The notes beneath the pieces are model-generated. The model ran no database searches and was not told where the DNA came from. It saw nothing but the letters and a program-made list of their open reading frames with translations. Below, piece after piece: positions 7,538 to 20,401 of a stretch of DNA of 20,401 nucleotides (positions are counted from its first letter, which is position 1; each line of letters starts with the position of its first letter). The position numbers were made by a program, and so were the translations under genes. This DNA is from a virus: positions 1 to 20,401 of the IMG/VR virus record IMGVR_UViG_3300025132_000399; one strand, given 5' to 3'.

Positions 7538-8080
7538 ATGTTTGTAGATAGTCTTAAACCAAACTACACAAGAGAAGAGGCTGTGTTTGAGGACGGGGAA
7601 TGGTGGTATATACAACCGGGAGATGGTAAACGTAGGCGTATTACATCTCACGCTCGTAAAAATACTACTCGCATGTTTGTTAATGGTAAGTACGTGCCTA
7701 AGTCAGACCCCTTGCACAAACCGGGCAACTGGAAAACATGGACGCACGTACACTCTCTTGAGAAATTAGAGAGTACAGATTCAGGAGTAGCTGGATACGT
7801 TTATGTAATAGTAAACGAGGCTTGGCCTGAATGGGTAAAGATTGGCTGCGCTAAAGATGCTGATGATCGTCTGAATAGCTATCAAACCTACTCACCGTTT
7901 CGTGATTACTCTATTGTTGCCCGAATTAAAACAGACAACAGGCACGTGGAAGAAAAAGAAATGCACAAAGCCTTTACTCACTTTGCAAAGGAGCGAAAGA
8001 ACGAGTGGTTTAAGATTGATAGAGTAACAGCGATTAAGATATTTAACTACAAGATAAAGGAGAAAGAGGATGCGGCGTAA
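7538..8080 (+). CDS. T5orf172/MUG113-type GIY-YIG nuclease-like protein
   Basis: A 180-aa protein. The C-terminal half (about residues 85-170) shows the T5orf172 pattern: GYVYVIVN, then WVKIGCAKDADDRLNSYQTY, then a helix with Glu (RHVEEKEMHKAF) and the closing EWFKI. GIY-YIG enzymes cut DNA using the Tyr pair, an Arg and a Glu, all of which have candidates here. The N-terminal half holds two short, Trp/Tyr-rich strand pieces (FEDGEWWYIQPGDGKRRRI and MFVNGKYVP) that I cannot place; they could bind nucleic acid. Possible roles are host DNA degradation, modification-dependent cleavage, or a domesticated mobile nuclease. A GGGAG site precedes the ATG and the end overlaps the next gene by 11 bases. 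Confidence 0.85.
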   Translation: MFVDSLKPNYTREEAVFEDGEWWYIQPGDGKRRRITSHARKNTTRMFVNGKYVPKSDPLHKPGNWKTWTHVHSLEKLESTDSGVAGYVYVIVNEAWPEWVKIGCAKDADDRLNSYQTYSPFRDYSIVARIKTDNRHVEEKEMHKAFTHFAKERKNEWFKIDRVTAIKIFNYKIKEKEDAA

Positions 8081-8809: not shown

Positions 8810-8825
8810 TTGCCCCTTTTATTTA
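8797..8825. terminator. Bidirectional rho-independent terminator between converging gene blocks
   Basis: The stem AAGGGGC / GCCCCTT (8799-8805 with 8812-8818) has a 6-base loop. A T-run follows on the + strand (to 8820, then ATTTATTT). An A-rich run precedes it (8791-8800), which becomes a U-run for transcripts coming from the right. It can therefore stop both the early rightward and the structural leftward transcripts. The + strand stop codon lies in the loop, and the - strand stop lies a few bases to the right (8823-8825). Confidence 0.85.
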
Positions 8826-11800
8826 TTTAAACGCCGTATTAAGTGCGCTTCCCACCTTTTTACCAATCATAAAGTGATTGGTTCCGGGGTCTGCATTTTG
8901 TTTTTCTAGCACAGTCATACCGTATCTATCTTGGTAGTATTCATCTGCCAGCTTACGAGACTTAGTAGAAAGCCGTGACCACTCAGCCCTATCAAAAGGA
9001 GTAAATCCCTTACCTTCCTTTCTGGCTGGTGCATACGACTCTGCCTTACCCATTTCTTTAGCCAGTTTGCGATATTTCTTTAGCTTATTAGCTACGCTTG
9101 CTTTCTGTTTGGCATCGCTTAGACTGTTAAAGTACTCTGTGTTTATTTCCTGTGATAAATATTTTTCTACCAGCATACCCATGTGCTTCTTTACAAAGGC
9201 ATCAGCCTTCTTGTCACCTGTTGTTGGTACAATCTCCCACTCTTCATACCCAAGGTCCAACAGCTTCTTCTCTACAGGGCTTCTCCTTGAACGACTACGC
9301 ACACCAGTAAGCTGCCCAAGCAACGGGCTTTGTGCTAACTCTGGTGCTTCTCTTGATGCACTTTCTCTAATAGGCATATCCTGCTTTGAAGGCACACCAA
9401 TAAGAGAGGTTTCCTCATCAAATACATATGGTATCTTGGGTAGGTTACGAGTGATGCTATTTTCAAAAGCAGAAACACCACGCTCAAATCCACCTACACC
9501 ATCTATCTGTCTGGCATCACGCTGGTACAATGCTTCCTTATCAAACTGTGCCATGATGTCACCGACAACACGAACAGGAGTAGTGACAGCACCAACCAAT
9601 TCACCTAAGTAACCAGCAACATATTCTGCCATCTTCTCTGTCTTGATGTCACCACCTTCACCACCAGTAACACTTTCAATGTTCTCAAAGAAAGAGTCAA
9701 TCATGTAGGCACTAGCACCTGCACGTATCTGAGAGCCTGTAAGACCTTCCATTACCTGCTGGATACCCGCTTCATCTAGCGTATCGTTTTTCATCTTAAC
9801 AATGAAGTCAGCTACAGCAAGGTAAGGTGATATAGGGAAGAAGGGGCGGGTATCAATGGTCCTACCCTCACTATCCATTACATTATACCATTCAGTATCT
9901 TGATTCTCTTCACGATGTTTGACAGCAGCAAACAAAGCAGCAGTACCTACAGTGGCTTTGCCTATCTGTTCACGAGCCTTGGCTAGTTGCCTCTCTGTAG
10001 TAGCGTCACTTACACCTTTAATGTATTTACCGTATATACCTTTACTACCATTTGTGATAGCACCCACAGCACTTAGTGGACTATAATCAAACTGAAACTG
10101 CATGGCATTGACCATGAATCTAGCAAACGGAAATGCACCCGTGCCAACAGGCGCACCTACAATACCGGGCAATGGGCCTAGAGCCTCATTGAAACGTACA
10201 AAGTGATAGCCTACCGTATCACCTAGTTTGTCACCGCCTCGCTTTGGCATACGAGCAAAGGTAAAGGACAGCGCATCATCAACTGCACGTTCTAGTATGT
10301 CAGTGGGAAGTGCCTTGCCCGTACCAACAAAGTCATCTATATCCATACCTACAGAACGTAGCTGCTTACCCACAGAGTCGTTAAATACAGCACGTCTGAA
10401 GTATCCGTCCTGTAATATGTTAAGGGTATTGACAAGCCTAGCACCACGAGAAAGACTTTGATCTACATCAACCTCTTGCAGTGACCTGTCCATAATACGT
10501 GCAAGACGTGGATTATGTTTTAATAAAGTTTGGCTCAAGTCTTTGGAGTGTCCAAAGTCTGACAGATAAGACAATGTACCAAAGGTATCTTGTCCTATTT
10601 CACGCAATCCCTTCTGGAACCCTTCAATGCTTGCCTCACCTTTGGCAACAGCACCAATACTTTTACCAAGATGATACATACTAGAGTCTACAAACTTAGC
10701 ACCACTCTCCATAGTAAGACGCATACCTGCAGTGGCTACGTTACGTGCGGTGGTAGCTATCTGCGACACCATGAAGGCACGGCGTTCACGGTCAAGCCGC
10801 ATCATTAAGTCGTGAGCCTTACCAAAAACGCTAGTGGTAGCATTCTCTTTACCAAACTTGTCGTTAATCTCTTTAGCAAGAGCAGGGTCTAGTTCATTGA
10901 CACGTTTAATCAGCTTGCCCAAGTTACTATAAGAAGCCATAGTCTTGGCGGCATCACTAAGGCTTACACCACTTACATCAAGAAAATCTTTAGTGGACAT
11001 GCCAGCACGGGCAATAGCACCGTCAAGCACTGTGGAATCTATGTTTTCATTAGATAGAACGACACGAGCAATTTCAGACGCTTTTGCATTATTGGCAATC
11101 ATGCTCTCAATTTCAGGAGCCATGTTACCCTTACGCATCATGTCAGCTACTACCTCTGTAGCAACCTTGGCAATACGTTGTGATATATCTACCTGTAGCT
11201 GGCTCTCTGTAAGTTCACCGCCTTTTACCTTGTCACGTAAAAGTTTAAGGTCAATCTCATCTAGTATTTCATGCCCATTAACAGGGTCAAATACATAGCC
11301 AGAGTCCATCTGACGTGCTGTTTCACGTGCAGCTTCTCTTTCACCTGCTAGTTTAGCAGCCTCATCAAATTCTTTGATGATTTTTTCTGCACCCTTCTTG
11401 GCAAACAGTCCTGTAGTAAGGGCGGTTAGACCACCACCCGCTACAGCTACTACACCACCTGTCATAGCTGCTAAACCTACATCTACTTCATCAACAATAT
11501 CTAGTTCAACATCAACTTCTTGTCGCCCAAGACTTTCAAGAGTACCGCCTGTAAAATCTGCTACTACTTCAACTGCAGCAGGTTTAGCAGCAGCCTTGGC
11601 GGTCAGCTTCATTGCTTGTTCACGTGCAGCAGCTTTACCTTGCGTCTTTAGCACCTCAATAATAGCACGTTGTGCGCCAACAGCAGCAACCTTACCAGCA
11701 CCAAAGCCAATAAGGTTTAACGGGTCTGCTATAAAGTAGCCTACGTAATCACGGAAGCCACGTAATGTATCGCCACCACCTTCGTCTAAGAAACCGGGCA

Positions 11801-12335
11801 TTCTTTCAAGCTGGCTATAGACGTAGGCAAAGTTGCCCTTCTCTTCTTCTGTAGCACCACGTACATAGTCTAGGGTAGACAGGAGTGACAAGCTGTTAGT
11901 TTCAAAGCCACGGACGTGGGTAAGAAAACGCTCAAGATACTCCTCATCCGTTTCATCTTCTTGTTGTGCGCCATCCTTGCCGTATCTGCTAATAGAATAC
12001 TCTTCAATGCTCTCCATGTAGCCACGGTCTTTGGTAAACTCTTCAAAGCTACGGGGTGAAGTGAAGTCTTCTAATTCATTATCCTGACTAACAGATGCTA
12101 TTTCTTGAGTATCATCTTCAACTAGAAAAGACAGGTCTTCTTCTTCGTTTTTTTCTGGTTCCAATACATTGGTAGTGTCTTGTGTATCAGCGACTATATT
12201 ATCTTCAACCAGAAATGACAGGTCTTCTTCTTCTTCTTGAATATCATCTTCGACTGGTTTAACAACAGAAGATAAAGTTGTTTCTTGAGTATCATCTTCA
12301 ACTAGAAAAGACAGGTCTTCTTCTTCGTTTTTCAT
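8823..12335 (-). CDS. Large virion protein, putative internal/DNA-ejection protein with triplicated acidic N-terminal peptide
   Basis: A 1170-aa protein, the last and largest of the structural block. The first 75 residues hold three copies of EEDLSFLVED (Asp at 7, 38 and 67). Residues 100-200 are charged and helical. Around 205-260 lies an Ala-rich amphipathic part, and around 286-312 a glycine-rich hydrophobic stretch (GLAAMTGGVVAVAGGGLTAL) that could insert in a membrane. Long helical regions follow, and the C-terminus is basic (KKYRKLAKEMGK). No lytic transglycosylase motif is visible. Size, position and membrane-active look recall the large ejection proteins of podoviruses (T7 gp16), but there is no recognisable similarity. 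The start has TTAGGGG upstream. The only gap to the 605-aa gene is 9 bases. Virion role likely, exact function inferred. Confidence 0.9.
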   Translation of the reverse strand: MKNEEEDLSFLVEDDTQETTLSSVVKPVEDDIQEEEEDLSFLVEDNIVADTQDTTNVLEPEKNEEEDLSFLVEDDTQEIASVSQDNELEDFTSPRSFEEFTKDRGYMESIEEYSISRYGKDGAQQEDETDEEYLERFLTHVRGFETNSLSLLSTLDYVRGATEEEKGNFAYVYSQLERMPGFLDEGGGDTLRGFRDYVGYFIADPLNLIGFGAGKVAAVGAQRAIIEVLKTQGKAAAREQAMKLTAKAAAKPAAVEVVADFTGGTLESLGRQEVDVELDIVDEVDVGLAAMTGGVVAVAGGGLTALTTGLFAKKGAEKIIKEFDEAAKLAGEREAARETARQMDSGYVFDPVNGHEILDEIDLKLLRDKVKGGELTESQLQVDISQRIAKVATEVVADMMRKGNMAPEIESMIANNAKASEIARVVLSNENIDSTVLDGAIARAGMSTKDFLDVSGVSLSDAAKTMASYSNLGKLIKRVNELDPALAKEINDKFGKENATTSVFGKAHDLMMRLDRERRAFMVSQIATTARNVATAGMRLTMESGAKFVDSSMYHLGKSIGAVAKGEASIEGFQKGLREIGQDTFGTLSYLSDFGHSKDLSQTLLKHNPRLARIMDRSLQEVDVDQSLSRGARLVNTLNILQDGYFRRAVFNDSVGKQLRSVGMDIDDFVGTGKALPTDILERAVDDALSFTFARMPKRGGDKLGDTVGYHFVRFNEALGPLPGIVGAPVGTGAFPFARFMVNAMQFQFDYSPLSAVGAITNGSKGIYGKYIKGVSDATTERQLAKAREQIGKATVGTAALFAAVKHREENQDTEWYNVMDSEGRTIDTRPFFPISPYLAVADFIVKMKNDTLDEAGIQQVMEGLTGSQIRAGASAYMIDSFFENIESVTGGEGGDIKTEKMAEYVAGYLGELVGAVTTPVRVVGDIMAQFDKEALYQRDARQIDGVGGFERGVSAFENSITRNLPKIPYVFDEETSLIGVPSKQDMPIRESASREAPELAQSPLLGQLTGVRSRSRRSPVEKKLLDLGYEEWEIVPTTGDKKADAFVKKHMGMLVEKYLSQEINTEYFNSLSDAKQKASVANKLKKYRKLAKEMGKAESYAPARKEGKGFTPFDRAEWSRLSTKSRKLADEYYQDRYGMTVLEKQNADPGTNHFMIGKKVGSALNTAFK
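12101..12152 (-). repeat. 52-nt exact direct repeat, copy 2, in the 1170-aa gene
   Basis: Identical over 52 bases to 12281-12332, exactly 180 bases away, so the reading frame is preserved. It encodes KNEEEDLSFLVEDDTQE. A diverged third copy lies between them at about 12190-12240. Confidence 0.95.
12281..12332 (-). repeat. 52-nt exact direct repeat, copy 1, directly after the start codon of the 1170-aa gene
   Basis: The repeat begins with the second codon of the gene and encodes the same acidic peptide as the copy at 12101-12152. The identity suggests a recent in-frame duplication or gene conversion. Confidence 0.95.
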
Positions 12336-12344
12336 ATTTTACCC

Positions 12345-14162
12345 CTAAGAAGTTTGACCTTTGTATGGGAACAATTCTAGTGCCTGTTCACGTGTTCTAG
12401 CACCTTTAGTAGCCATTACATAGGCGTCTATGGCTTTATCATAATCTTCTTTACTTCCACTCAGATTGTCCCTAAGTCTATTTGCGGCTTCTGATGGAGA
12501 CAACTCTGATGCAGGTTTAGCAGCCATTTGTGCAGCTTTTTGTTCCTCTTGCGCTTTAACAGCAGCTTCAATTAATGCTCTTGCTCCGGCTTCATCAGTT
12601 TTTGTAGCCTCCATTACTGCTTCAACTTTAGCGTTCATGCCCTTCCAACCTGCGACACCAGATAACGCTGTTATAGTTTGTTGTATTTCTGGCGTAAACT
12701 CTTGTGTATTTGCTCCCGCTTTGTCAGTTGCTGGTTGTTCGCCAAAATTGCGTTCAAATACATCATCAACTACAGCGGCAGCAGGTTTAGTTTCCTCTGT
12801 ATACTTATTAAATATTGATTTAGCAACGTCAGCTAATTGTTGTCTATGCTGGTCAAGAGATACTAATTGAGATTCACGAGGATACATCTGAATAAGTTTT
12901 TTGTATAAATCTGCTGCTCCTAATTTTGGATTAGCCTTTAACCACTTAGACCCGTAAACTTCTGGACCTTTTTGTACTATCTCAGCTATTTTTGCTGCAT
13001 TGTCTGGTTTTTTAGTAGCAACGCTTGCATCAGTAGCCTCTTCACTACCTATAATACGCTCATATATTTCTTTTAACTCTGGCCTTCTTAAAATTACTTC
13101 TTTACCTAAGAAAGACAGTTCACCATTACCATCCATCTGACCCCTTACATGTCTTTCATAATAAGCATCTTTTGCTGCTCTTACTGCTTCTGCATAACCT
13201 TCAGGGTCAGCAGTGATTGGTTCTTGTTTTCCATCTTTCATAAAGAAAGTGTCACCTATACCTGCTAATAATAAAGCAGAAGGCTCTCCATCAGTAATCA
13301 TTTTAGAATATCCAGAAGCCGTCATAGAACCCGGAGTATTTGTTTCTGCTGTAGTGGCACGGGTATAAGCCTGAAGATTTCGTTCTGTACGGAGATACGC
13401 TTGTTCCAATTTAGCCTTATCTGATTCGTAAGTTGGAGATTCCGGGTCTAGCTTTCCAATCTTGTTTGTTACGTCAGCAAAGGCTTCAGCAAGAGAAGGT
13501 GTCATAGTTTTTTCAAACTCTTTTACCTTCATACTATAATCAATTGCTGCGGCAAGAGCATCTTGATTAACTGTTGTTGTGCCGTAGTCACCCTCAATAG
13601 CTGTACGAGTAGCACCGGGGAATAAACCACGCATTTGTGCATCAGCACGTTCTGCACCTGTGTCACCAGCACCCAATCCTACCTTACTCAAAAACGTAGT
13701 GTCTGTAGCACGTACAGTAGGAGCCTCATACTCTGCACGTAATGCTTGGTAGACATCGTCACGAGATAACTTAGCTAATGTTTCATCGCCTTCAACATAT
13801 GTAAATACATCATTAATATCAAACTTAACACCTCGTGCTTCTGTATTTTTCATGTTTTCAAACAAGGCATCTAATGAATCTAAGTCACCACCATCTGTAG
13901 CCATAATAGCACTATAAACACGATTCCAATCTGTTTCACCGCCCTTATTAAACCTTGATGCCATTTTTTTAATAGCACTTTTTGTACGTTCATCTTTTGC
14001 CAATGCTTGTTCTTCAAGCTGTGAGGCACGTGTCATGGCATATTTTTTAGCAGCAGATACATCTGCATCTCGTTGTGCTATGGCATTGTCAATACTTTTA
14101 CTAGCAGTTGTAGCAAAACCTGTAGCAAAACCTTGTGCAAAATTACTACCAAACAAAGGCAT
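12345..14162 (-). CDS. Putative internal virion protein (605 aa)
   Basis: A 605-aa, largely helical protein of the virion block. It begins MPLFGSNFAQGFATGFATTA followed by SKSIDNAIAQRDADV. A short Gly/Phe repeat (FAQGFATGFA) leading into an amphipathic helix is something I associate with phage internal or ejection proteins. The middle is charged helical sequence without known motifs, and the C-terminal third is Ala-rich (ARALIEAAVKAQEEQKAAQM, then MAAKPASELSPSEAANRLRD). The ATG shares a base with the upstream stop (TAATG) and has GAGGAG 6 bases upstream. With the 798- and 1170-aa proteins it may form a set of three ejected proteins, as T7 gp14-16 do; this is inferred from order and composition only. 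Confidence 0.87.
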   Translation of the reverse strand: MPLFGSNFAQGFATGFATTASKSIDNAIAQRDADVSAAKKYAMTRASQLEEQALAKDERTKSAIKKMASRFNKGGETDWNRVYSAIMATDGGDLDSLDALFENMKNTEARGVKFDINDVFTYVEGDETLAKLSRDDVYQALRAEYEAPTVRATDTTFLSKVGLGAGDTGAERADAQMRGLFPGATRTAIEGDYGTTTVNQDALAAAIDYSMKVKEFEKTMTPSLAEAFADVTNKIGKLDPESPTYESDKAKLEQAYLRTERNLQAYTRATTAETNTPGSMTASGYSKMITDGEPSALLLAGIGDTFFMKDGKQEPITADPEGYAEAVRAAKDAYYERHVRGQMDGNGELSFLGKEVILRRPELKEIYERIIGSEEATDASVATKKPDNAAKIAEIVQKGPEVYGSKWLKANPKLGAADLYKKLIQMYPRESQLVSLDQHRQQLADVAKSIFNKYTEETKPAAAVVDDVFERNFGEQPATDKAGANTQEFTPEIQQTITALSGVAGWKGMNAKVEAVMEATKTDEAGARALIEAAVKAQEEQKAAQMAAKPASELSPSEAANRLRDNLSGSKEDYDKAIDAYVMATKGARTREQALELFPYKGQTS

Positions 14163-14677
14163 TAGCTTCTCCTCGCCATTAGTCCACCAGACTTCTTAAT
14201 TGTTTCGGTATCTTCTACTTCTTCTTTTTCTTTTCTTTCCATGTTAATGTCTACTTTTGTTAGCTTCTTTTCAAAATCACGGGTTATTTTTTGTACACGA
14301 GTTGCCCTTACTTTATTTTTATTTGGATTTTCTAAGCCACTCTCGTATTCAATACCTGCGCTTTCCGCAAGCATCATCATCATTTCCATAATTACAGGCA
14401 TAACAAGCATACCAACATCAATAGTGTGTATGCCTTCCATAACACTAGCAAGCTGCATAGAGTTTGCAATATTGGTAACAGGAACCCCCATTTCCATTAC
14501 ATCAATAAGTTGATCTATAATGTCTTCAGAAGTTATACGAGCCATATAGTATTCTACAGCATCATCCACAGTAGTATATTGAGGTTCAGATTGCCACGGC
14601 CTACCACCTAACTCTGAAGTTAAATGCTGACCCGGAATAGGGCTATCAAAATTAGGAGTTGCTTCTTCAAACGCCAT
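14162..14677 (-). CDS. Conserved marine-phage virion-block protein, 171 aa, unknown function
   Basis: A 171-aa protein. The N-terminus MAFEEATPNFDSPIPGQHLT, then ELGGRPWQSEPQYTTVDDA, is a pattern I recall from several marine phage genomes, without known function. The centre is a helical region with a Met-rich hydrophobic run (MLVMPVIMEMMMMLAESAG, about 95-113), followed by a basic, charged helix (VRATRVQKITRDFEKKLTK) and the ending KKSGGLMARRS. The final GGLM motif resembles motifs in the two neighbouring proteins. It is likely a small structural or assembly protein, perhaps an adaptor binding a larger virion protein. AGGAG lies 8 bases before the ATG. It overlaps the upstream gene by 11 bases and the downstream gene by one. 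Confidence 0.87.
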   Translation of the reverse strand: MAFEEATPNFDSPIPGQHLTSELGGRPWQSEPQYTTVDDAVEYYMARITSEDIIDQLIDVMEMGVPVTNIANSMQLASVMEGIHTIDVGMLVMPVIMEMMMMLAESAGIEYESGLENPNKNKVRATRVQKITRDFEKKLTKVDINMERKEKEEVEDTETIKKSGGLMARRS

Positions 14678-14882
14678 CTATGTTACTCCTCGCATCACGT
14701 ATGATTTTCATTTGCTTTGCCATGCGAATAGCAGGGTTATTTAAATCTAAACCCCCACTAGTTTTCATAGGATTTTTACGAACCATAATACCGCCATCAT
14801 CTTTAATGGCAGTTTCACTTGGCATGTTTTCAATATCCATATTAGCATATGCAGATACCATAGGATTATATGCTCTGGACAT
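14667..14882 (-). CDS. 71-aa virion-block protein of unknown function
   Basis: A small protein beginning MSRAYNPMVSAYANMDIENM, with DDGGIMVRKN (about residues 28-37) and TSGGLDLNNP (41-50), then a basic helix (IRMAKQMKIIRDARSNI). The GG-hydrophobic motifs resemble those in the 798-aa and 171-aa proteins on either side. Its start lies 17 bases inside the end of the 798-aa gene, and AAGGA sits 8 bases before the ATG, so the start is well supported. The disordered front and helical end suggest a peptide-like adaptor or minor structural component. No family is recognised. Confidence 0.8.
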   Translation of the reverse strand: MSRAYNPMVSAYANMDIENMPSETAIKDDGGIMVRKNPMKTSGGLDLNNPAIRMAKQMKIIRDARSNIDGV

Positions 14883-17262
14883 TGTGTTTTTCCTTTTTAC
14901 GTTCTACCACCAAGTCCATAAGTTTCTTAGTAGCCCACTTTAGTGGTGGTACTTTACTAATTAGTTTAGCATATTTTTCACCGTATGTCACGTACAAATT
15001 CTTAAACCATTTAGGTGCATCATATTGTAACCAAACACGGAAGATAAACCACTGTGCATTTTGAGGACCATACACTTCTCTTGCTACCCAACAGAAACCT
15101 TTAAAAGAACTAGACCCTATATATGCAGTACCCAGTGAGCCAATCAAGCTACCAATTGCACTACCCGCTGCGGATGAGCCTTCTGCGGCAGCAACATCTG
15201 CTTTAGTCTTGGCATCTAGTTCAGCAATAGCAAGCGCACTGATACGATCAAGCTGGCTTTCAGCAGAAGTCCAAGCCCACTCCATAGTGTCTCCATAATA
15301 TTGCCAAAGATTATTATATGCTTGATTAGATATATCTAGTAAGGACGCTGCATTAATTTCATTAGCACGATTAACTGCTGCGGTATCTGCTGTAGCAAGT
15401 TGTCTACGCCATTGAGCATTAGACTGTGCAATTACAGATTGATTCTGTGCATTAAACTGGTCACGTTGATTATTCATTTCTGCATTAAATCGTTCTACGG
15501 TATTAGCCTGACCCGCATTAAACTGTGCTTGTGCATTAGCTTGTGTAGAATTAAACTGTGCAGCTTGTTGACCCAAGTTAGCAAAGAACTGATCTACTTG
15601 ATTTTGGCTAGTAGCATTAAACTGCCGGGCAGCATTATCTGCAGCAGTATCAGTAAATAAAGATTGAGTTCTTTGTTGTGCTTTAAACAACTCTGTTTGT
15701 TGTTTGTTAGATACATTTGCCATATCTAACTGTAAGAAGGACTGTGCATTATTTACAGCAGCTTGTTGGCGATTATTTAGATTAGCCGCATCCATTTGTG
15801 CTAATGCACTAGCCTCTGCCATAACCATTGCTTGCGAGTTAGACAGATTATTTAGATTCATGGTATTGGCAGCACGAGAGTTTTCTAATTGTACCTGTTG
15901 TTCTGCGTTAAAGTTCATGCCAGCAATGTCAGATATTCTAGCTGCATTTTGTACACGTGTTTGGAATGCTTGGTCAAACTCCTGACCCATAAATGTAGCA
16001 CGTTGTTGTGCAGCAAGCATGGCACGTGCCTGTCTATTAGACAGGTTTTGTGCCTCAAACTGTGCTTGTACTTGTGCATCTGCAGAGGCAATAGGTAGTG
16101 CAGACTCCATAGCTGCCTGAACCATAGCCTGACCAGCGATAGAAGATGCCCCAAGCCCCCTCTGTGCCATTTGTGCCTGTACCCCTCGCAAAGCACCCGC
16201 AGCCCATGCAGGAGGATTAGAGGCGTCAAAGTTAGCAGTTAGCTGTGCAAGCTGTCCTTGTACAGTAGCTTGTGTGGAGGGTGTAGCTGTTGCTGCTTGC
16301 ACTTGTTCTGTAAAGGTAGTGGCAGTTTGTGCATCAGCAGCACCGCCAGATATTAATTCACCCTGTTGAATACTACGTTGCACAGGACTATTAATAATAG
16401 AGGCATTACCTTGTGCTTCTGTTAAACTGCCTACAGAACTAGCTGTTTGTTGTGCAGCAGTTATTTGCGCCCGTGGATCGGCAGGGTTAATTTGTGCTGC
16501 TTGTGTAGCTGTTAGAGCAGCACTAATTGCAGGTGCAGCAGTAGCTGCGGTTAGGGTATTAGCTGTTTTTTCTGTTTGTGTGGCAGCTTGTGCCGTTTGT
16601 GCCATTGCTGTAGGCACTGCAACTGCACCTGTAAGTGTACCAGTACCCTGTTGTATTTCCTGACCCGGACCTGTTGGTGTCATAGCAGCAGTAGTTACAC
16701 CACCTTGAGGTAGGCCGGGTGTGTACATACGCTGGGCAGCTACATCACCTATTGAAGCAGGTGCTGTTGTAGGTGCAGCAGGTGGTGTGGCTGGCTCTGC
16801 GACTTGTTGAAATTTCAGAGCATCTTCTGCAAACTTACCTCTTGTTCTATCTACCTGCATGGGTATAGGCGTAACACCGGGTGGTGGCACCATAGTAGGA
16901 TTAGTTACACCAGCTTGTGCAGCAAGTTGTGGGTTGCCGTATGTTTGTCCATCAGGTCCATACACTACGACTTGTGGCCCAGCACCCATCATATTACCTT
17001 CTGGTGTGCCTAGTGGCCCCATCAGAGGTGGTGTAGGCGAGTTTAATGGAAAATTACCTATCTGAGCCAGACCACCTGTCTGCATCTTCACTACACCGCC
17101 TTTAGCCATCTCCATAGCGGCATTAGTAAACTGTTTCATCCGTGCTTGACGTGCAGGGTCTTGTTCAATAAAGTCTTGGAACTGGCCCATGTCACCAGAG
17201 TAGCCCATTGACTGTGCAATCTTGTTCATCGCTGTAGGTTTAAATGCTCTAAAGACTGCCAT
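14866..17262 (-). CDS. Long hendecad coiled-coil virion protein with CFI-box-like C-terminus
   Basis: A 798-aa protein in four parts. Residues 1-70 are a small N-domain with two GG motifs (AKGGVVKMQTGGL, 53-65). Residues 70-400 are low-complexity, rich in Ala, Thr, Gln and Pro. Residues 405-623 follow an 11- and 22-residue period (repeats starting QNLSNRQ, ANLNNRQ, then QFNA units), predicted to be a long right-handed coiled coil. A Gly/Ser-rich hydrophobic stretch around 695-717 leads to a C-terminal domain (about 718-783) beginning FCWVAREVYG. That end resembles the bacterial CFI-box C-terminal pattern and recurs, as I recall, in marine phage structural proteins. It is probably an internal core or ejected rod protein; a tail-fibre role is less likely given its place. 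The ribosome site is weak. Confidence 0.88.
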   Translation of the reverse strand: MAVFRAFKPTAMNKIAQSMGYSGDMGQFQDFIEQDPARQARMKQFTNAAMEMAKGGVVKMQTGGLAQIGNFPLNSPTPPLMGPLGTPEGNMMGAGPQVVVYGPDGQTYGNPQLAAQAGVTNPTMVPPPGVTPIPMQVDRTRGKFAEDALKFQQVAEPATPPAAPTTAPASIGDVAAQRMYTPGLPQGGVTTAAMTPTGPGQEIQQGTGTLTGAVAVPTAMAQTAQAATQTEKTANTLTAATAAPAISAALTATQAAQINPADPRAQITAAQQTASSVGSLTEAQGNASIINSPVQRSIQQGELISGGAADAQTATTFTEQVQAATATPSTQATVQGQLAQLTANFDASNPPAWAAGALRGVQAQMAQRGLGASSIAGQAMVQAAMESALPIASADAQVQAQFEAQNLSNRQARAMLAAQQRATFMGQEFDQAFQTRVQNAARISDIAGMNFNAEQQVQLENSRAANTMNLNNLSNSQAMVMAEASALAQMDAANLNNRQQAAVNNAQSFLQLDMANVSNKQQTELFKAQQRTQSLFTDTAADNAARQFNATSQNQVDQFFANLGQQAAQFNSTQANAQAQFNAGQANTVERFNAEMNNQRDQFNAQNQSVIAQSNAQWRRQLATADTAAVNRANEINAASLLDISNQAYNNLWQYYGDTMEWAWTSAESQLDRISALAIAELDAKTKADVAAAEGSSAAGSAIGSLIGSLGTAYIGSSSFKGFCWVAREVYGPQNAQWFIFRVWLQYDAPKWFKNLYVTYGEKYAKLISKVPPLKWATKKLMDLVVERKKEKHNVQSI
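15394..16050 (-). repeat. Coding hendecad repeat region (33-nt and 66-nt period) in the 798-aa protein
   Basis: Reading on the - strand, six 22-residue units (first: QNLSNRQARAML...) run from 16050. Then, after a two-residue phase break, seven exact 11-residue units run from 15624 down to 15394: QFNATSQNQVD, QFFANLGQQAA, QFNSTQANAQA, QFNAGQANTVE, RFNAEMNNQRD, QFNAQNQSVIA, QSNAQWRRQLA. The first codons of the 11-mers lie exactly 33 bases apart. Confidence 0.92.
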
Positions 17263-17469: not shown

Positions 17470-17817
17470 CTACCAGCCAGAGGGTGTGCCAGTGAGGATT
17501 GTGGGTGTTTTTTGTTCTGCAATATCTGCATCAAGATCAGCCTTCAACTCTGATTCCGTTTGATCTAAAGCTGCCAAGACTTTGGCTTTGCACCAATCTT
17601 TAGTAATTGAGTCGTAGGATACAAATGATGCACCAGGCTCGTATCCAACACTGGTTGTTCCGTACTTAATTTTTGCTAGGTAATTTCCATCTGGCCCCTT
17701 GTCAGAGTCACTAATACAAGTAATGCGCCAGTGAATTGTTTTTACTACATCTGAATTAGAACCTTCGGTTGCTACACGGTCTAATTGCGGAAACTCAAAT
17801 GTCATTGCTGTAGCCAT
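17470..17817 (-). CDS. 115-aa fibre-associated small protein (DUF7936-like)
   Basis: A 115-aa protein with a beta-rich front (TFEFPQLDR, VVKTIHWRITCISD, YLAKIKYGTTSVGYEP), a conserved 'Y-S-TKDW' turn, and a C-terminal helix ending EQKTPTILTGTPSGW. The order 'ttvhW, yGt, helix, I-Q-xP-GxPxW' matches a small protein often found beside marine phage tail fibres (I believe DUF7936). Its function is unknown; a fibre chaperone, adaptor or base component would fit. GGAGG lies 6 bases before the ATG and within the last codons of the fibre gene, so the two are translationally linked. Confidence 0.83.
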   Translation of the reverse strand: MATAMTFEFPQLDRVATEGSNSDVVKTIHWRITCISDSDKGPDGNYLAKIKYGTTSVGYEPGASFVSYDSITKDWCKAKVLAALDQTESELKADLDADIAEQKTPTILTGTPSGW

Positions 17818-17820
17818 TCT

Positions 17821-20401
17821 CTATTCCTCCAGCGCAGCCACACGGCTACGCAAATCTTGAATTTCTTTCAGTAACATTGGAACCAAAGAGGGGTAGTCCA
17901 CGCCCTTCCATTTATCATCGCAATCGGTTTCTGTTACAGCTTTGGGCCACACAAGTTCTAGTTCCTGTGCAACCATGCCATAGTCTTGATGTTCGCCATC
18001 AACCTTCCAGTCAAACTGACGTACTTTAATTGAATCAATTATGTCACCAGCAGAATTAGCGTCAGTAACATTTTCTTTTAATCTGATGTCGGATGAAGTT
18101 GCTAAACTAGTAGCACTGTTTGTAAAATCTAAACCGCCAACGTAACTGTTGTTATGATAAAAAAGGATTCCATTCCTAGTTCCATCGTAAGTTTTAACTA
18201 CATAGATGTATGCAGGGCTTCCATCCCCGCCAGAGTCAGAAGGACTTTGTATACGGGTATTAACTACGTTATTTACCGCCGCAGTGTGGCCCCAAATTTG
18301 AGTTCCACCCGACAGTATTCTAGACCGCTCACTATTTCCAGTGCCGAATATCAAAGTGCCACTTTCACAGTTATTCAAAATGGTATCAGTACCAATTATT
18401 GCAAACTGCGCCCCACGATTAGCACCACTCGCAGGGTCTGACAGTTTTAAAACAGCACCAACTGTATCGTGCATATGGAGGTATTGCGCACCGCTGGGTA
18501 CGGTTATACCAGCAAGGGTTCCGTCTACCGTAGGTGACGTATGGCCGATGCCGACATTGCCTACGTTATTGAGGACCATTGGTACATCGGTACTGGCTGG
18601 GCGAAACTCTAGGTAGTTGCCGTCTGTGTTATGTATTCTAAAGCCGTCAATGCCCGTGTCACCGCTAAACGCAACCTCACCAGCAGCACCATCGCCAACA
18701 GTAAGTTTGTCACCGATTGTTGCGCCTGTTGATGAAGTTGCTAATTTCTTGGCATTGTTGTGATATAAGTCAACTGCGCCACCTTCAGTAAGAACTGCCA
18801 TATTTTGTGATGAAGAGTTCATAAGGTTTATGTCATCAGATTTAATAGAAAGCGCACCCGTCACTGTATTATTTATAAAACTGTTAGAACCGTCATGGAA
18901 TATTTGCAGGTCAGACCCAGCCCCAAACATGGCTTTGGCACTGTCTGGAAACAGAATATCATCCGTACCAGTCGGCACGGTAAACACCGTAGCGTCTGCA
19001 TCGTTCTTTAGCGTGATGTCGCTAGTGCTGCCCTGTCCTGTCAGGATAAGACCCTCTGCCGCTGTATAGCCGATTGCAGCGTTGTCGCCAGCACTGGTGT
19101 CAGCCGTGGCCTCCACCGTGCCGCCAGTGATTACGCCTGTGGTAGTGATTGCGCTAGAGCCGTTGTCAATACTGCCAAAGCCGGAAGTGATGCTGCCAGA
19201 GTTAAGTGCGCCTGTTGTGACGATGTTGGAGTCTCCAGCCGCTGGTGCCGCCGCTATGTCAGACAACACTTCAGAAGCAGAACGCCCTTCAATAGATGTA
19301 CCGTCAATACGTAGAAAGTCATTGTCGGCAGCACCGCTGGTAAACACAGGCAGGTTGCCATTAGATATACCAGTAGACAGAGTAGCCACTGTAGTAATCG
19401 CTGTGCCATTTAATGTCATGGCGTCAGCTTCCAGAGTGCCATCAATGTCAGCATTACCAGATACATCTAATGACCCAGCATCAAGTTCGCCTGTAAGCGT
19501 AATATTACGGAAGCTGGCTACATCTTTGTTAGCATCTGCTGTGACTACTTTACTTGCAACCACTGTACCTACAGCAGCACCCGTGTCACTGTAATTAAGT
19601 TCTGTTGCTGTTGCAGTAACACCGTCTAAAATGTTTAGTTCAGCCGCTGTTGACGTGACGTTAGTGCCGCCAATGTCAAGCGTAGTCATTGACACTTCAC
19701 CAGCTACAGTGAGTACGCCATCTGCTACCGTCATTAAATCCGTGTCGTCCGTGTGACCAATAGTAGTGCCGTTGATAACAACGTCATCAATGTCCAGTGA
19801 TCCACCAGTAATTAGGCCCGTGGTTGTGATTGTTGATGATCCTGTATCAATAGTGCCAAACCCGCTGGTAATAGAACCAGAGTTTAGTGCGCCCACAGTG
19901 GTAATATTGGAAGTTGTATCAAGTGCGCTTTCAAAGAATGTTTCAAAATCAGACAGTGCAACTTGCTTCATAGTTCCAGCATCATTAACAATCAGCCTGT
20001 CAGCAGCAGCAAGTGTAGTTGATGTAGCTGTCGTGCCACCATCTATTAAGTTTAATTCTGCGGTGGTAGCAGTAACACCATCCATAATGTTGAGTTCAGA
20101 TGCAGTAGCTGTCACCCCATCAAGAATGTTAAGTTCTGCAGCAGTGGATGTAACATTAGTGCCGCCAATGTCTAGTGTAGTAACAGATATTTCACCTGCT
20201 ACCGTTACTAAACCACTAGCAACTGTAATCAAATCGGTATCGTCTGTGTGACCTATTGTTGTTCCATTAATAACTACATCGTCAATATCCAGAGAACCAC
20301 CTGTAATTAGTCCTGTAGTGGTAATAGTAGACGAGCCTGTATCAATCGTACCAAAGCCAGATGTAATAGAACCAGAATTAAGTGCGCCAACTGTTGTGGC
20401 A
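17821..20401 (-). CDS. Tail fibre protein with C-terminal Peptidase_S74 intramolecular chaperone (5' partial)
   Basis: The receptor-binding fibre. The frame is open to the window edge; the TTG at 20232 is internal to a repeat (TDDTDL), not a start. At least 860 residues are present. The front is Thr/Ser/Gly/Asp-rich beta repeat sequence, with ELNILDGVTAT-type 13-residue units near 20040-20160 and a 165-residue-period repeat. The middle has the LQIFHDGSNSFI and VDLYHNNAKKLATSSTG motifs common in marine phage fibres. The end (17824-18096) is a Peptidase_S74 domain: SSDIRLKENV, then DYGMVAQELE and a coiled-coil end (LLKEIQDLRSRVAALEE). S74 domains trimerise the fibre and then cut themselves off at the Ser of the SD motif, using the nearby Lys. 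Host range probably depends on this gene. Confidence 0.94.
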   Translation of the reverse strand, partial: ATTVGALNSGSITSGFGTIDTGSSTITTTGLITGGSLDIDDVVINGTTIGHTDDTDLITVASGLVTVAGEISVTTLDIGGTNVTSTAAELNILDGVTATASELNIMDGVTATTAELNLIDGGTTATSTTLAAADRLIVNDAGTMKQVALSDFETFFESALDTTSNITTVGALNSGSITSGFGTIDTGSSTITTTGLITGGSLDIDDVVINGTTIGHTDDTDLMTVADGVLTVAGEVSMTTLDIGGTNVTSTAAELNILDGVTATATELNYSDTGAAVGTVVASKVVTADANKDVASFRNITLTGELDAGSLDVSGNADIDGTLEADAMTLNGTAITTVATLSTGISNGNLPVFTSGAADNDFLRIDGTSIEGRSASEVLSDIAAAPAAGDSNIVTTGALNSGSITSGFGSIDNGSSAITTTGVITGGTVEATADTSAGDNAAIGYTAAEGLILTGQGSTSDITLKNDADATVFTVPTGTDDILFPDSAKAMFGAGSDLQIFHDGSNSFINNTVTGALSIKSDDINLMNSSSQNMAVLTEGGAVDLYHNNAKKLATSSTGATIGDKLTVGDGAAGEVAFSGDTGIDGFRIHNTDGNYLEFRPASTDVPMVLNNVGNVGIGHTSPTVDGTLAGITVPSGAQYLHMHDTVGAVLKLSDPASGANRGAQFAIIGTDTILNNCESGTLIFGTGNSERSRILSGGTQIWGHTAAVNNVVNTRIQSPSDSGGDGSPAYIYVVKTYDGTRNGILFYHNNSYVGGLDFTNSATSLATSSDIRLKENVTDANSAGDIIDSIKVRQFDWKVDGEHQDYGMVAQELELVWPKAVTETDCDDKWKGVDYPSLVPMLLKEIQDLRSRVAALEE
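19735..19902 (-). repeat. Fibre repeat unit B (56 residues), identical in protein to the copy at 20230-20397
   Basis: The segment runs from TTVGALNSGS to HTDDTDL, 56 residues on the - strand. It is identical in protein to the copy 495 bases upstream in the gene, but the DNA differs at 38 of 168 bases by hand count, all synonymous. Confidence 0.9.
20230..20397 (-). repeat. Fibre repeat unit A (56 residues), partner of the copy at 19735-19902
   Basis: This is the first copy in gene order, next to the window edge. A third, weaker copy (TTGALNSGSITSGFGSIDNG) follows later in the gene near 19150-19220, so this is a family of at least three units. Confidence 0.9.

Follow-up and report, generated by a model that had tools for sequence, protein, structure and literature searches.

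Hendecad repeats place 11 residues in three helical turns, with a hydrophobic period of 11/3 = 3.67, and families of hendecad coiled coils were reportedly described by Martinez-Goikoetxea and Lupas in 2023. The nearest described system to the protein reported here is the pilot protein H of phiX174, a tailless phage with ssDNA, for which H is known to form the DNA-delivery tube. Ten copies of H make a 170-angstrom helical tube in which three hendecads are followed by heptads (PMC7354561), with a lumen surface made up largely of Asn, Gln, and Arg (PMC7354561; PDB 4JPN, 4JPP). In podoviruses, the ejection operon has the order gp14-gp15-gp16, with products of 181-240, 431-982, and 609-1337 aa (PMC8954989).

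The window that we analyzed is an IMG/VR virus record of 20,401 bases. Its nearest named relative is Puniceispirillum phage HMO-2011, a short-tailed marine phage, and the source virus is an HMO-2011-type marine podovirus. On the minus strand, at 14866..17262, it encodes a 798-aa protein bearing a long repetitive rod and homologous to HMO-2011 gp25 (YP_008320287.1, hypothetical protein). True homologues were found in HMO-2011, CRP-1, CHOED, MQM1, HTVC103P, and phiM6; they share the anchors and register of the rod protein, while their rod lengths differ by whole hendecads. Nearly all records of the family are annotated as hypothetical, with one labelled "huntingtin." Neither the rod protein nor its family profiles found a relative in Pfam, PHROGs, or the PDB, and Foldseek searches with the rod model returned no match in the PDB and only apparent relatives among viral models. 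One of the viral matches, spanning 107 columns, was named for an intramolecular chaperone domain; PF13884 (C-terminal endosialidase chaperone) is absent from the rod protein, which has no Pfam match. A look at host genomes gave just four contigs binned in MAGs, with no clear prophage, and among isolates we saw no sign that rod length tracks genome size. The rod protein belongs to a large, uncharacterized phage family.

An initial annotation had proposed a hendecad rod of about 30 nm, built from exact 11- and 22-residue units and interrupted by one two-residue break, at 15394-16050, which corresponds to residues 405-623 of the open reading frame at 14866-17262 (minus strand). Within these residues, identity at lags of 11, 22, 33, and 44 was 0.21, 0.24, 0.21, and 0.22 (z = 4.8, 5.9, 4.6, and 4.8), each value beating the best of 2,000 shuffles, and z did not exceed 1.3 at any other lag from 2 to 49. 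That initial observation is genuine, indeed stronger than first stated, with the 11- and 22-residue periodicity upheld by z scores of 4.8 and 5.9. Lags 11, 22, and 33 were also the top three among lags 4-39 in 48 nonredundant homologues, and the 11-residue periodicity was present in every homologue examined, so the initial proposal withstands the refutation by homologues that it had itself set out. The units are degenerate rather than exact, however, and the DNA carries no tandem array; TRF reported no 33- or 66-base array across 15394-16050. The rod consists of 18% Gln, 14% Asn, and 20% Ala, in agreement with the richness in Asn and Gln that had been noted.

Asn recurred with a period of 11 (z = 13.5); 15 of 25 units have it at one and the same register position. 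Autocorrelation and phase tables placed the rod with its unbroken Asn register at residues 395-637 (15352..16080, minus strand), the register running uninterrupted from residue 406 to residue 637, so the repeat is present but longer than claimed. The main hydrophobic residue directly follows Asn in the first part of the rod (N-L) and directly precedes it in the last part (F-N). These positions lie two residues apart; the proposed break therefore exists as a shift of the main hydrophobic, whereas the Asn register itself is continuous. In residues 540-640, the hydrophobic period peaked at 3.67, over the 95% permutation level, and in residues 396-533 it peaked at 2.75, not 3.67, which argues that the latter part is no simple one-faced coiled coil.

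The length of the rod followed a strict rule. Between the anchors PIA..DA and N..WR (15421..16095, minus strand; residues 390-614), the stretch used for the length test comprises 225 residues, or 20 x 11 + 5, about 34 nm as one helix at 0.15 nm per residue, against the roughly 30 nm first estimated. With strict anchors (PIA..[DN]A and [NS]..WR), the length was 11n + 5 in all 108 nonredundant homologues, which took 15 distinct values from 148 to 533 residues, every one of them 5 mod 11. Were lengths free, the 14 further ones would fall into the same class with a probability of about 11^-14; shared ancestry raises this figure, yet the rule stays far from chance. Fifteen lengths require at least 14 changes in rod length, and no surviving off-register change was seen. 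No indel occurred in the rod among 43 close homologues, in which the low-complexity linker at residues 66-170 (16753..17067, minus strand), behind the conserved N-terminal segment at residues 1-65 (17068..17262, minus strand), varied widely in length. In distant phages, rod length did vary, more than threefold across 250 relatives, but only ever by multiples of 11 residues; the repeat is thus a strict building rule.

Looser anchors gave the same outcome in 250 of 250 sequences (113 nonredundant, 16 lengths), although these lengths are biased toward the register because the second anchor includes Asn, and the looser second anchor may fall short of the true one in three homologues (L189, L235, and L250). 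For the same reason, we redid the test with an Asn-free landmark, the first Trp beyond PIA, which lay in one phase in 216 of 250 sequences and in one other phase in 32; the rule was therefore not created by the choice of anchors. The strict-anchor and Trp-only counts are accordingly the ones to be trusted over the looser-anchor counts. Upstream of the rod, the distance from P.WA to PIA was 39 in 237 of 249 sequences. The longest rod, that of homologue L208 under looser anchors, has 753 residues between anchors, or 68 hendecads and 113 nm as one helix, and the family spans 13 to 68 hendecads (22-113 nm), in contrast to the three hendecads of H. As judged from the sequences, the hendecad rod is strict and its length quantized across the phage family. 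It resembles general hendecad coiled coils such as the tetrabrachion stalk in its 11-residue repeat but differs from them in its exact length quantization and in the Asn that most units carry at one position. The two parts of the rod vary in length independently, which speaks against a simple antiparallel hairpin with matched arms.

The genes that follow the rod gene resemble a podovirus ejection operon in order and size. Downstream on the minus strand lie genes for a 171-aa protein (14162..14677), a 605-aa protein that is gp15-like by order and size alone (12345..14162), and an 1170-aa all-helical protein that is gp16-like by order and size (8823..12335). The same order, a 171-aa-type gene followed by a medium (~500-600 aa) and a large one (~1080-1220 aa), was found in the source virus, HMO-2011, Slicky01, phiM6, and ctYwJ313, the three HMO-2011 products measuring 164, 502, and 1128 aa. 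It matches that of T7 gp14/gp15/gp16 and P22 gp7/gp20/gp16; the small-medium-large pattern is held by the neighbors and not by the rod gene itself, which is an extra gene ahead of the T7/P22-type trio. All 202 loci with enough sequence carried a homologue of the 171-aa gene on the same strand as the rod gene and no more than 2.5 kb downstream of it, and this held at every rod length in the set. The 171-aa protein had no significant match in Pfam, PHROG, or PDB searches; its family carries the motifs FDAPIPGMSLTHELGARPWQ.PPQY and, at the C terminus, GLMARR.

The 1170-aa protein gave a confident all-helical model (pLDDT 76, pTM 0.70), with no significant Foldseek match in the PDB, and no relation to T7 gp16 could be detected. 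The N-terminal 90 residues, predicted to be unstructured, include an acidic EEEDLSFLVEDD-like segment three times. A weak local match of the 1170-aa protein to a CRP-810 protein annotated as internal virion protein D (E = 6e-4) was the only sequence or fold similarity between this gene set and known ejection proteins. Because the 1170-aa protein has neither a fold match nor a relation to T7 gp16, the ejection assignment rests on gene order and size. We found no proteomics that places the rod protein in the virion.

When one periodicity test was applied to all proteins, z was 12.4 for the rod protein, 5.9 for H, and 5.0 for P22 gp20, each above every shuffle, and the 11-residue periodicity of T7 gp14, gp15, and gp16 and P22 gp7 and gp16 did not rise above shuffles. 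H is like the rod in having amide-rich hendecad helices, but the two are not detectably homologous (hhalign probability, 0.2%), and the rod family belongs to dsDNA podoviruses. We take H as the functional model for the rod, not as a member of its family. P22 gp20 (L261:2070-3485), which has no sequence homology to the rod, contains a short 11-residue tract of few units at about residues 213-255 (RGQDMSAATARRGQDL), also seen in relatives, which may hint that further ejection proteins contain hendecads.

From its operon position, the rod protein is probably part of the DNA-delivery apparatus, and a role as a DNA-ejection conduit is plausible on the same basis. Our preferred reading, which we hold at just under an even chance, is that the rod is a predicted alpha-helical hendecad coiled coil within a structural protein of the podovirus, and that this protein would be ejected together with the 171-, 605-, and 1170-aa proteins to form a DNA-carrying bundle or tube. 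The rod chains are likely to be a parallel, in-register helical oligomer. With chains paired in this way, the gain or loss of a whole hendecad would keep both end domains in nearly equal angular phase and be tolerated, and any other indel would rotate them by 98 degrees per residue and be lost. Grouped with the ejection set by operon position, the rod protein would leave the head along with it, and its helices would build a narrow bundle or tube, rich in amides and for the most part uncharged, to aid DNA across the envelope. A Gly-rich hydrophobic stretch near the C terminus (residues 696-717, GSAIGSLIGSLGTAYIG; 15112..15177, minus strand), the most hydrophobic part of the protein, is a possible membrane segment and might enter the membrane. 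Such a protein would act like the microvirus H, without homology to it.

As a natural experiment on helix phasing, the 11n + 5 rule is unusually clean; it yields a prediction testable on one gene, and it could serve as a sequence signature for finding DNA-conduit proteins beyond the reach of homology. A bolder proposal is that the family consists of DNA-conduit proteins of tailed phages, modular hendecad helical tubes that lengthen or shorten by 11-residue quanta alone (13 to 68 units), with an Asn ladder holding the chains in parallel register. Abundant marine dsDNA phages would then possess a convergent counterpart of the H tube, a reading that strikes us as less likely than not.

The rod could instead be the stalk of an external tail fiber or spike, a helical homo-oligomer whose length sets its reach and whose optional C-terminal module is the tip. 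We consider this unlikely, although several features speak for it: a stalk is rod-like and tolerates whole-repeat length changes, the rod gene comes after a run of tail-fiber genes in HMO-2011, and the C-terminal module (CWVAREVYG..; 14869..15111, minus strand) is optional, occurring in about half of the close homologues. Lengths of 22-113 nm also suit fibers more than a periplasmic tube, and the longest rods (80-113 nm) surpass an ordinary periplasm, a point against such a tube. Tail-fiber genes lie just upstream, so the block also borders tail genes. Receptor-binding tips usually vary, however, and alignments showed that the region right after the rod (residues 615-690, NAQWRRQLATADTAAVNRANEINA..; 15193..15420, minus strand) is conserved in distant phages, including phages of distant hosts. 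Moreover, the tight partner of the rod gene is the 171-aa gene heading the ejection-like operon and no fiber gene, and a separate S74-type tail fiber is encoded next door. Searches with the N- and C-terminal segments for other proteins returned rod homologues only.

Less probable still is a static structure inside the head, either a core or a portal-proximal barrel, that remains in the virion or lines the capsid. P22 and T7 do possess long portal barrels and core stacks (PMC4992974; PMC8954989), and a rod this polar would be suited to touching packaged DNA. Rods of 412-753 residues would nevertheless measure 62-113 nm as one helix, about or above the size of a 70-nm head. The capsid of the relative MQM1 measures 70.6 nm, and the 533- and 753-residue homologues would reach 80 and 113 nm, so the straight capsid-lining rod suggested initially is unlikely for the longest forms.

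We give very little weight to an amphipathic helix lying on a membrane in the manner of apolipoproteins or alpha-synuclein. Ejection proteins do meet membranes, and apolipoprotein and alpha-synuclein families have 11/22-residue repeats equal to those of the rod, but the 22-mers have no proline between them and lack a single hydrophobic face. Family-wide, the one-fold hydrophobic amplitude was 0.024, below 96% of phase permutations, and the lipid-binding model failed this hydrophobic moment test.

Over the 72 residues leading up to the second anchor, Phe and other large hydrophobics are concentrated on one face. In the remaining rod, the family wheel has two hydrophobic seams on opposite sides, at about 32-98 and 229-294 degrees, with charged residues between them at 163-196 degrees and amide (Gln) and Ser/Thr residues on the side opposite the charged ones, at 327-0 degrees. 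This layout is compatible with the preferred bundle or tube, in which a helix would sit in a ring, charged outside and amide-lined inside, although the barrel-like pattern is not significant (p ~ 0.2 on 11 positions).

Equally improbable is a nonhelical rod, that is, a beta-solenoid or another fold with 11-residue rungs. Beta-solenoids can hold Asn ladders, and both hydrophobics and Asn show the 2.75 period in residues 396-533. The rod is, however, rich in Ala, Gln, Arg, and Met with little Gly, has no proline in 27,501 rod residues from 108 homologues, and shows the 3.67 period in residues 540-640. AlphaFold (42 sequences, monomer) likewise predicted helix throughout, with helices of 79, 67, and 157 residues separated by two short breaks, at modest confidence (mean pLDDT 63, pTM 0.22). 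Hendecad coiled coils are hard AlphaFold targets (PMC11676326). The long polar hendecad helix of the initial annotation is supported.

A structurally meaningless artefact of low complexity or recent DNA duplication, as the richness in Ala, Gln, and Asn might suggest, is already contradicted by the strict length rule in 108 homologues, by the constant length among close relatives, and by codon usage. Synonymous codons gave no sign of recent duplication: codon sharing at identical in-register residues showed no excess over chance in the window and was at chance for 14 of 15 other lengths, the exception being L094 (lag 11, p = 0.006). We conclude that the repeat is old and that selection acting on the protein maintains it.

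Other features of the window were also recorded. The tail-fiber gene at 17821-20232 (803 aa) encodes the S74 chaperone domain (PF13884) and long internal repeats, and has a 39-base tandem array at 20052-20145. Between it and the rod gene lies a gene for a 115-aa DUF7936 protein (17470-17817), which just 12 of 86 related loci contain. Positions 7538-8080, flanked by the genes for ribonucleotide reductase and MazG, hold a gene with a T5orf172/MUG113 domain, which we take to be of a GIY-YIG-like nuclease family.
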